From Carboxydothermus hydrogenoformans Z-2901 (GTDB taxonomy: Bacteria; Bacillota; Z-2901; Carboxydothermales; Carboxydothermaceae), in the NCBI RefSeq assembly GCF_000012865.1, contig NC_007503.1, forward strand, positions 2,239,001 to 2,303,000: a stretch of 64,000 nt of DNA, in the 5' to 3' direction. Made by a program: the position numbers and the translations under genes. Of this stretch, positions 3,362-6,297 are shown piece by piece (the first letter of the stretch is position 1; each line of letters starts with the position of its first letter). The notes beneath the pieces are model-generated. The model had not been told where the DNA came from. It made no database searches and saw nothing but the letters and a program-made list of their open reading frames with translations.

Positions 3362-4563
3362 ACTGTGCCCACCTCCAGGAGGCTTTCGTAAACCCCCAGA
3401 GGACGCTTCTCAACTTCCAGGGAAGATAACTTGATCGCCCTCGGCCTGGGATAAAACATGCCCTCGGCTTCTTTTAGACCCTTATACTGGTCTTTGAGGA
3501 AAACGGTGCTCCTTGAGCGGTAATGCTTTTCGTGGGTTGCTATCACCTTCCCATCATAGAGGATTTCGATTTTACCGTTTTTGTCCCTTACAACCACCTC
3601 TTTTCCGCTATACTGCCAGGGAACACCGTATCTTACGCCGTCAAAACTCAAAAAGCCGTCTTTGTGGACTTTCCTTGCTTCTTCCAGGAATTTTTGGTAT
3701 TTATCAAGGGCAGGCAGGGGTTTGAGGTTTTCCTTCTTCAGGCGGTCAATAGGCCTTTCCCCGGTAGTGCCGTGTATTCTCCTGTTTTTCTTTTCGCACC
3801 ACACTATTGCCTGGCGGTTTAAATCACCGTAGTCTACGAACTTCCTACCCGGCAGGAAGTTGTTTTTGACAAAATCTATGCCGCTTTCTACCTTGCCTTT
3901 TGTTTGGGGGCGCCGTGCCCTGCACACTTTAGGAATAAATCCAAGGGTCGCCGCAAGGTCTTCAAAGGTAGGGTTCCATATGGGCTTTTTGTTCTCACCG
4001 GTGCCCAGTATTACGGTTTTCATTCTATCGGTAAGAACTATGTCGGTTACTCCGCCGAAGTATTCAAACCCGTGGATCAAGCAGCGGATGAAGGTATGGA
4101 CGTCGCAGCGGTTTGTGAATTCCACGTATATGGCTCTGGAGTAGCCAAGCACCATGACGAAGACGTAAAGCTTACGTATTTCACCGGTTTCCTCGTCAAT
4201 GTAGGTGTATTCGCCCCAGTCGACCTGGGCTTGCTGGCCGGGCTTGGTTTCATAGCGGCATACGGCAGGGACCTGTTTTGGAGGTCTAAATTGTCTTACA
4301 TAGTCCCTTAAAATAGTGCGACCTCCGGTGTAGCCTTCTTCCTTGATTCTTTCGTAAATGACTTCGCAATTGAATATCCCCAGATTCATGAGCTCTTGAA
4401 TAGTATCTTTGTATGGGTCAAGCTTTGAACCTCTTTTGGGATGGGGCTTCCTTTCAGGAATGCCCTCTGCTCTGAGGTATTTTCTTACCGTATTTCTGGA
4501 ATGGCCTGTTTCTCGTGCGATTGCACGAATACTCTTGCCTCTTGCTTGTAATTCATGTAACAT
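3358..4563 (-). CDS. istA: IS21-family transposase IstA
   Basis: A 401-residue DDE recombinase. An N-terminal helix-turn-helix (GKSIRAIARETGHSRNTVRK) is followed by an integrase-like core with catalytic D in QVDWGEY, D in IVLTDRMK and E in KGKVESGIDF, and then the Mu-type C-terminal beta region. Length and order are complete. The ATG at 4563 has only a weak ribosome-binding site (GGA), and the normal promoter region toward the right inverted repeat is now separated from it by the IS110 insertion, so expression may be altered. It overlaps the start of istB. Confidence 0.92.
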   Translation of the reverse strand: MLHELQARGKSIRAIARETGHSRNTVRKYLRAEGIPERKPHPKRGSKLDPYKDTIQELMNLGIFNCEVIYERIKEEGYTGGRTILRDYVRQFRPPKQVPAVCRYETKPGQQAQVDWGEYTYIDEETGEIRKLYVFVMVLGYSRAIYVEFTNRCDVHTFIRCLIHGFEYFGGVTDIVLTDRMKTVILGTGENKKPIWNPTFEDLAATLGFIPKVCRARRPQTKGKVESGIDFVKNNFLPGRKFVDYGDLNRQAIVWCEKKNRRIHGTTGERPIDRLKKENLKPLPALDKYQKFLEEARKVHKDGFLSFDGVRYGVPWQYSGKEVVVRDKNGKIEILYDGKVIATHEKHYRSRSTVFLKDQYKGLKEAEGMFYPRPRAIKLSSLEVEKRPLGVYESLLEVGTV

Positions 4564-4689
4564 GATAATTGATCCACTCCCTATCTCAATATTTTTTGAT
4601 TAACTAAATTAAGCTCTTAAAATCTTATTTTTTCGCTGAATTTCAGCTATTTCAATGTTGTTTTTTGTAAAGGATTTTTGAGACAAAAC

Positions 4690-4900
4690 AAGACCACCTA
4701 CGACAACTTGCGAATCAAGTTGCCTCACAAACGCTTCACTTATGCCCTCGACTACCCTATCATGTCTCTCGAGGTCCTACGCCCTCATTACATTCCTTCG
4801 TTCTGCCTTAGAGGGTAAGGCGGGGAGCTTTTTTACTAGCATGCAGGGTCTTGCCCCTATGGGAGTGTTAGAGCTTCCCCACCTTACCGGCCAACTCATT
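4690..4900 (-). ncRNA. Candidate bridge/seek RNA of the IS110 element
   Basis: On the minus strand immediately after the transposase stop, a long hairpin pairs 4872-4888 with 4814-4829 (about 16 pairs, GGTAAGG-type arms around a 42-base loop with its own small stem). A second perfect hairpin lies at 4704-4722 (CAACTTG/CAAGTTG). Proteins of this family are guided by a structured RNA encoded next to the gene, downstream in IS1111 members. Placement and folding fit, but guide loops were not matched to donor or target. Confidence 0.45.
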
Positions 4901-4901
4901 T

Positions 4902-6185
4902 TTAGGCTGCTAACTGGTTTATTTGCATAATGCGGTATTCCCCAAGGACTTTCTGGGGATCGTAATTTTCTCTCTTCTTGGCAAGGGCAAACATCACCCT
5001 TACCAGTTTGACTGAAATCGCAATCAATGCCTGCTTAGCTTTCAATGGATTTTTGGGCCTTTTTAGGAAATAGTTGTATAGTGCCTTGAATTCCTTGTTT
5101 TTGGCTACTAGCGTTAGGCTTGCTTTGTAGAGAAGATTCCTCAGCTCAGGACGGCCCCTCTTGGAGATCTTGGCCTTCCCTTTGTGTTTTCCCGATTGGT
5201 TTTCGGCTATATTAAGCCCTGCTAGTTTTTGTATCTGCTTAAAGTGGGTGTAGTTGGCTAAGTCACCTACATCCGCTAGAAATCCAGCTACGGTTATTAC
5301 TCCTATGCCAGGAATGCTGAGGAGGTATTCTGCTATGTCTATTTTTTTGAGCAATTCTTCCATTGTTTTTTCAATCGTTTCGAGCTGACCTTTTAAAAAT
5401 TCTATTTCGTCAAGGTATGAGTGAAGGCGAATATATGCCCCTTTTAACCCTTCTTTTACCCCTACTGACTTTTGTGCTGCTTCGATGAGTTTCTCGGCTC
5501 TTTTTATGCCCACTCTTTTATTGGCGGCTCTCTTCAGGTTTTCTGCCAGCTCTTCTTTGGTGTAGTTTAAGATCATGCTCGGAAACGGACAGTGCCGCAA
5601 TACCCATAAAGCCGCCTTGCCTAAGAGGTTCTTGAATACTTCTTCAAATTCAGGAAAGTATTCATCTATGATAGAAACTAGTTTGTTTTTAGCGCTGTTA
5701 AGCTTACTTATTAACTGCTTTCTTGCGACCGAAAGGTTTCTTAAGTCTGCGTAAATCCCTTCGGGTAAGAGGCAGTTTAGAAACTTACCCTCTTTTACGA
5801 GTTTGGCAATTATTAATGCGTCCTTTCGGTCGTTTTTGGTAGGGCTGTTGTCTTCCTCTTCTTTCCTTTTCTTCACGTGGAACGGGTTCACCAGGACTAC
5901 CCGGTATCCCTGTTGCTTCAAAAACCATGTGAGGGGCTTCCAGTAATGGCCGCTGGGTTCAAGGCCTATTATTACCCTTTCTGCTTTTGTTTTTTCTTTG
6001 GCTTCGAGTATTTTAGAGACTATACGAAAGTAGCCATCTTTGCTATTATTAAACTTGAAAGGTTTTACTGGTTCGAGTCCGATGTGGTTTATGATCCTTG
6101 CATAGTGGTTCTTTTTGGCAACATCGATCCCGACGAAAATTATGTCGGAACCATGAACTAAAAGGAGTTTCTCGATTTTGTTCAT
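4902..6185 (-). CDS. IS110-family transposase (DEDD, RNA-guided type)
   Basis: A protein of about 427 residues. The N-terminal RuvC-like DEDD domain shows GIDVAKKNHYA, GLEPSGHYWKPL and NDRKDALIIAKLV. A coiled-coil middle follows, and then the C-terminal Transposase_20 domain with LLSIPGIGVITVAGFLADVG and the region holding the catalytic serine, AENQSGKHKGKAK. I chose ATG 6185, preceded by GGAGGGCGATAGGC; a longer in-frame start at 6257 has no better signal. IS110 enzymes excise and insert DNA through a circular intermediate. The gene looks intact. It sits inside the IS21 element, on the same strand as istA. Confidence 0.93.
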   Translation of the reverse strand: MNKIEKLLLVHGSDIIFVGIDVAKKNHYARIINHIGLEPVKPFKFNNSKDGYFRIVSKILEAKEKTKAERVIIGLEPSGHYWKPLTWFLKQQGYRVVLVNPFHVKKRKEEEDNSPTKNDRKDALIIAKLVKEGKFLNCLLPEGIYADLRNLSVARKQLISKLNSAKNKLVSIIDEYFPEFEEVFKNLLGKAALWVLRHCPFPSMILNYTKEELAENLKRAANKRVGIKRAEKLIEAAQKSVGVKEGLKGAYIRLHSYLDEIEFLKGQLETIEKTMEELLKKIDIAEYLLSIPGIGVITVAGFLADVGDLANYTHFKQIQKLAGLNIAENQSGKHKGKAKISKRGRPELRNLLYKASLTLVAKNKEFKALYNYFLKRPKNPLKAKQALIAISVKLVRVMFALAKKRENYDPQKVLGEYRIMQINQLAA

Positions 6186-6297
6186 GCCTATCGCCCTCCT
6201 GGTTAAGTGGTTTTGTGTTCCAATTATTCTTTTACCAGGAGGGTTTTGTTTTTGCAAAGGCTATTTTAATTTATTACAGGAATGCTAGCATTTATTT

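Follow-up and report, generated by a model that had tools for sequence, protein, structure and literature searches.

A structured RNA of about 158 nt is encoded on the minus strand of the window (the whole 64,000-nucleotide stretch of Carboxydothermus hydrogenoformans Z-2901 DNA analysed here), starting about 8 nt after the stop codon of an IS110-family transposase gene, and it is very probable (about 94%) that positions 4736-4893 encode a bridge (seek) RNA guiding this DEDD transposase to both target and donor. The structure is conserved, its loops are complementary to target and donor and co-vary with them, and the dinucleotide core and both ends of the element are defined. The features of the RNA region are as follows.

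4736-4893, minus strand: bridge (seek) RNA core, from covariance model and covariation
4814-4888, minus strand: target-binding hairpin (helix 4872-4888 with 4814-4829), the long hairpin of the original prediction
4862-4867, minus strand: target guide T (CACUCC), complementary to GGAGTG, the six target bases that follow the core on the right
4836-4842, minus strand: target guide B plus core, AUGCUAG, copy of left target (last five bases) plus core
4744-4815, minus strand: donor-binding hairpin (helix 4811-4815 with 4745-4749)
4791-4797, minus strand: donor guide T (AGGAAUG), complementary to CATTCCT of the left end
4757-4761, minus strand: donor guide B, GAUAG, copy of right end GATAG
4704-4722, minus strand: hairpin 2, outside the conserved RNA core and kept only by the closest relatives
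4902-6185, minus strand: intact transposase, 427 aa (DEDD_Tnp_IS110 and Transposase_20)

Structure and conservation of the downstream RNA

The original prediction placed a candidate guide RNA in non-coding DNA on the transposase strand, on the strength of its location and two hairpins, and the region is indeed non-coding and on that strand. The long hairpin is there: on the minus strand GGUAAGGUGGGGAAGCU (4888-4872) pairs with AGCUCCCCGCCUUACC (4829-4814), with a single bulged A and a single G-U pair, and the best stem score of 23 was reached in none of 200 dinucleotide shuffles (16.4 ± 2.2), in agreement with the claim that the stem is too long for chance. Its outer GGU/ACC pairs compete with a second conserved helix, CCCUC/GAGGG, and the conserved stem is about 10-12 bp. 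The second hairpin, described as perfect, also exists, with a stem of 7 perfect base pairs (9 with one G-U), but it lies outside the conserved RNA core. Folding energy was modestly unusual (z of -1.8 for 4690-4900 and -2.6 for 4600-4905); as the total is only mildly low, energy alone is no proof of structure.

Transposase relatives were gathered at 41-93% identity. Almost every one whose downstream side is complete has the same two-loop RNA after its transposase, and this conservation extends to about 41% protein identity. A covariance model built from 14 close members, the window RNA being one of its training set, matches that RNA at 151.6 bits, and the model also detects second-clade RNAs absent from its training set with E values of 1e-10 to 1e-18. 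In a covariance-model search of the phylum the RNA was present in 82 of 399 genomes, and of 30 RNA loci that were retrieved, 26 have a transposase match directly preceding the RNA in the same orientation. A search of Rfam gave no match above threshold and only chance matches below it.

Four loci (L120, L134, L136 and L137) carry the RNA with no transposase match nearby, and L120 and L134 retain a recognisable right end. A left end was looked for near all four and none was found; they were considered as solo guide RNAs, a reading rejected on this ground and on their look of decayed copies. They are probably decayed remnants or, possibly, non-autonomous derivatives relying on transposase in trans.

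In the alignment of 33 RNAs, 84.5% of cells form pairs. Two-sided changes, the check proposed in the original prediction, numbered 148 cells compared to 52.5 ± 6.1 after shuffling (0/500 shuffles as high), and the covariation score was 0.404 compared to 0.145 ± 0.012 (0/500; slid versions at most 0.124), in an alignment that was fitted to the structure and so favours a high score. The alignment used was the covariance-model alignment A3; an initial MAFFT alignment had put the stem arms in the wrong place. Within a single helix, relatives carry the differing arm pairs GGGUGGGG/CCCCACCC, AAAGCGGAGAUA/UAUCUCCGCUUU, GUCAG/CUGAC and GUUAG/CUAAC. Given these arm pairs and the size of the effect, there is little doubt, as judged from the aligned sequences, that the covariation is real despite the structure-fitted alignment.

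The target loop is laid out as guide T, CCAUAAGGGCA..GACCC, guide B and AG, and the donor loop as GAACGAAGGAAUG, AGGGC..GACCC and GAGACAUGAUAGG. In the window RNA (4736-4893) and its relatives, the two loops have a common tip, AGGGCA..GACCC, and a common T-then-B layout, which suggests a duplication as the origin of the RNA's two halves.

Element ends and guide complementarity

The element and its surroundings comprise the following features.

4583-6284, minus strand: IS110-family element between its AG core copies, 1702 bp, from empty IS21 copies and ends common to homologues
6285-6286, minus strand: left core AG, with target left flank AAATGCT ending just outside
4581-4582, minus strand: right core AG, with right flank GGAGTGG just outside
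4561-4580, minus strand: right flank of the IS110 element, comprising a ribosome-binding site (core AG plus GGAGTGG) and the IS21 istA start codon
2520-6396, minus strand: IS21 element interrupted by the IS110 element

The IS110 element is intact and single-copy in the genome (one contig of 2,401,520 bp), and its flanks are the two parts of one IS21 element. The same genome holds IS21 copies without the IS110 element, a second copy (98% identical) and a partial third (L002 and L003), and these give the target as AAATGCT-AG-GGAGTGG. The empty site on the transposase strand reads GGGAAATAAATGCTAGGGAGTGGATC and the target sequence of the element AAATGCTAGGGAGTGG; at the occupied site the sequence is AAATAAATGCTAG/CATTCCTGTAAT across the left junction and TTGAGATAG/GGAGTGGATC across the right one, with an overlap of TAG. 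Relatives have AG in common and not the T on its left, so the core was set as AG, which is CT on the plus strand; the element then spans 4583-6284. The element ends AGCATTCCTGTAAT and TTGAGATAG, or relatives of the latter ending in GGGAG or GAGAG, recur in homologues, and ends were fixed independently by copy-versus-copy comparison inside multicopy genomes. By comparison with the empty sites, insertion was precise, at a specific site and with no target duplication beyond the core. Searches found no near copies in phages and no distant DNA matches in plasmids.

The original prediction proposed looking for loop segments that match the element ends and the IS21 insertion site. Such segments are present for both ends (AGGAAUG for the left, GAUAG for the right) and for the insertion site (CACUCC and AUGCUAG), the latter pattern holding over about 30 lineages. 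The true target scores 11/14 against the guides, a value unmatched among the 6,958 AG sites of the window. Across 31 lineages guide B agreed with the left flank at 4.03 of 6 positions compared to 2.21 ± 0.20 after permutation, and across 33 lineages guide T agreed with the right flank at 4.27 of 8 compared to 3.21 ± 0.17; neither value was reached in 20,000 permutations, in which guides were reassigned among lineages treated as exchangeable. For held-out lineages, retrieved once the guide positions were settled, the counts were 0/20,000 (left) and 90/20,000 (right). Moving the register by one base halved the agreement on the left, from 4.06 to 2.04, and reduced it from 4.32 to 2.79 on the right. 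By position, the share of insertions in which guide and flank agree is 62-94% for guide B (left flank, -5 to -1) and 45-88% for guide T (right flank, +1 to +6).

Individual lineages show this correspondence directly. L033 matches at 6/6 positions on the left and 7/8 on the right, L169 pairs TATTGG with TATTGG on the left, and in L186 the T guide UCUGUCACCU stands against the target complement CCTGTCACCT. Seven copies in one genome (G390) have the T guide AUCCCUC, and their right flanks start with GAGGG or GAGAG (six copies) or GTGGG (one). Guide fit is poor in L021, in L052 and on the left side of L009. On the donor side, guide and right-end pentamer are identical in 77 of 78 elements (70 counted by script, 7 read from printed sequence), in three states (GATAG, GGGAG and GAGAG). 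This is a natural family of presumed programmable recombinases, some of them from thermophiles. Its targets are known and its guide variants numerous, and it would be useful for learning guide rules; the five left and about six right positions weigh most here.

In Fervidicola ferrireducens, a relative (L188/L192 and L190, contigs C60 and C46) lies at the identical site of a related IS21 element that is about 90% identical. The assembled guides of this copy mismatch the site and the contigs break inside the element; repeat collapse, gene conversion or tolerant targeting are possible causes.

Mechanism, alternatives and place in the IS110 family

Transcription, RNA binding, circle formation and catalysis are modelled here on IS621 and ISEc11 (PMC11208160, PMC11187229). 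By this analogy, the RNA would most likely be transcribed with the transposase gene and then processed, and would fold into two guide loops and bind the DEDD transposase. Around the core AG, loop 1 would pair with the two strands of the chromosomal target, and loop 2 would do the same at the right end-AG-left end junction of the excised circle. The DEDD/serine enzyme would then exchange strands between the two AG cores, with precise, oriented insertion without target duplication as the expected outcome.

Other explanations of the structure were weighed against the guide reading. Strong stems placed directly after a stop codon could act as a transcription terminator or an mRNA-stability element of the transposase gene with no guiding role, but no U-run stands behind the long stem, and over about 30 lineages the loops, not the stems alone, follow the insertion sites and the ends, making this very improbable. 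We hold it equally improbable that the structure is a DNA-level element, either a transposase binding site or an end that folds as a single strand. Stem covariation by itself cannot separate RNA from folded DNA; however, the guides match both target and donor strands exactly as in known bridge/seek RNAs, and the structure is set back from the right end by a variable 150-300 bp.

The bridge RNA might also be sought upstream of the gene, where it usually lies in the IS110 group (PMC11187229) and where a stretch of about 320 bp precedes the gene in the genome's other IS110 element. Here only about 100 bp precede the gene, including the left end and a hairpin at the transposase's ribosome-binding site, and every guide found is downstream, so that an upstream RNA is the least credible of these alternatives and can be virtually dismissed. 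The upstream hairpin is a long inverted repeat, CCCTCCTGGT/ACCAGGAGGG, at window positions 6186-6250; it lies over the transposase's own ribosome-binding site and is kept in relatives, and as an mRNA hairpin it probably restrains translation of the transposase.

The element carrying the downstream bridge (seek) RNA is a member of the broad IS110 family (IS110 plus IS1111), with a structured non-coding RNA whose loops are complementary to target and donor. Its transposase has the N-terminal DEDD domain (PF01548) and the C-terminal PF02371 domain, and its DEDD and C-terminal SG positions align with those of IS621. As in the IS1111 seekRNA/bridge RNA of ISEc11, ISKpn4 and ISPa11 (PMC11187229, PMC11208160), a long non-coding region with the guide RNA lies downstream of tnp. 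As also in IS1111 seekRNAs (PMC11187229), the guide matching the top strand is 5' of the guide matching the bottom strand, and both strands of one target are recognised, overlapping at the core. The IS1111-type location proposed originally holds in this respect, but the transposase is atypical of that group, at 427 aa rather than 330-350, and the subterminal inverted repeats of IS1111 elements (sTIR, about 7-17 bp) are not significant here, the best terminal match being equalled in 170 of 500 shuffles. The transposase does not cluster with IS1111, falling in its own clade with 100/100 support in a tree that has a single IS1111-group reference and an unresolved backbone.

The absence of a long sTIR and a transposase length within the 395-455 aa of the IS110 subgroup are features of the narrow IS110 group, whose bridge RNA, unlike this one, is upstream of tnp with the bottom-strand guide first. 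The IS621 bridge RNA (PMC11208160, PMC11208158) is similar in having two loops, one for target and one for donor, one guide per half-site, a conserved dinucleotide core, and an enzyme with DEDD and C-terminal serine domains. In contrast to IS621, the RNA here is downstream rather than upstream with the guide order reversed, the core, CT in IS621, reads AG when taken on the transposase strand and CT on the complementary one, and the transposase is about 100 aa longer. Some IS110-type elements are described in PMC11187229 as exceptions with a downstream non-coding region, and, at the level of that description, the present element resembles them in having such a region without a proper sTIR. The RNA would act as a bridge/seek RNA with the layout and guide order of IS1111, yet the element is a variant and not a proper IS1111: it lacks a long sTIR, and its transposase, at 427 aa, is long and in a clade of its own. 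RNA position and guide order are here uncoupled from the sTIR and short transposase that are their usual IS1111 companions.

Insertion at Shine-Dalgarno sites

The clade tends to insert at Shine-Dalgarno sites. A start codon (of an open reading frame of at least 40 codons) lies 3-20 nt downstream in 49 of 78 insertions, compared to 20.5% for offset control positions that were not matched for intergenic DNA (p ~6e-16, with same-lineage insertions having one guide in common). In several lineages the guides and left flanks read AAGGAG. The window copy follows this pattern: the distance to the istA start codon is 17 nt, and the site, AGGGAGTGG, is kept intact by the insertion. If ribosome-binding sites are preferred, this would account for the ability of a guide-RNA element to settle at tolerable places in whatever genome it enters; a non-exhaustive literature search found no published description of this pattern.

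We would give even odds to a broader proposal, in which the bridge-RNA system of this clade is a mirror image (AG core, RNA downstream, guides in reversed order) and its guides are often set to the Shine-Dalgarno sequence. Landing in sense between promoter and start codon, with the core AG and right flank keeping the ribosome-binding site, such elements would occupy a guide-RNA niche available in every bacterium while sparing coding sequences, and an unrelated IS110 element of the same genome, with an upstream region large enough for such an RNA, sits at this kind of site from the opposite strand.

Finally, this second IS110-family element of the same genome is about 28% identical and has an upstream non-coding region of about 320 bp. 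Its four copies (L091-L094; G000:C1 at ~681.5, 985.0, 1148.5 and 1567.1 kb) all lie at AGGAGG/AGGGAGG, 14-15 nt before opposite-strand open reading frames of 131-222 codons, and its upstream region holds AAATACCTCCT, which matches the left flanks and resembles an anti-Shine-Dalgarno guide.
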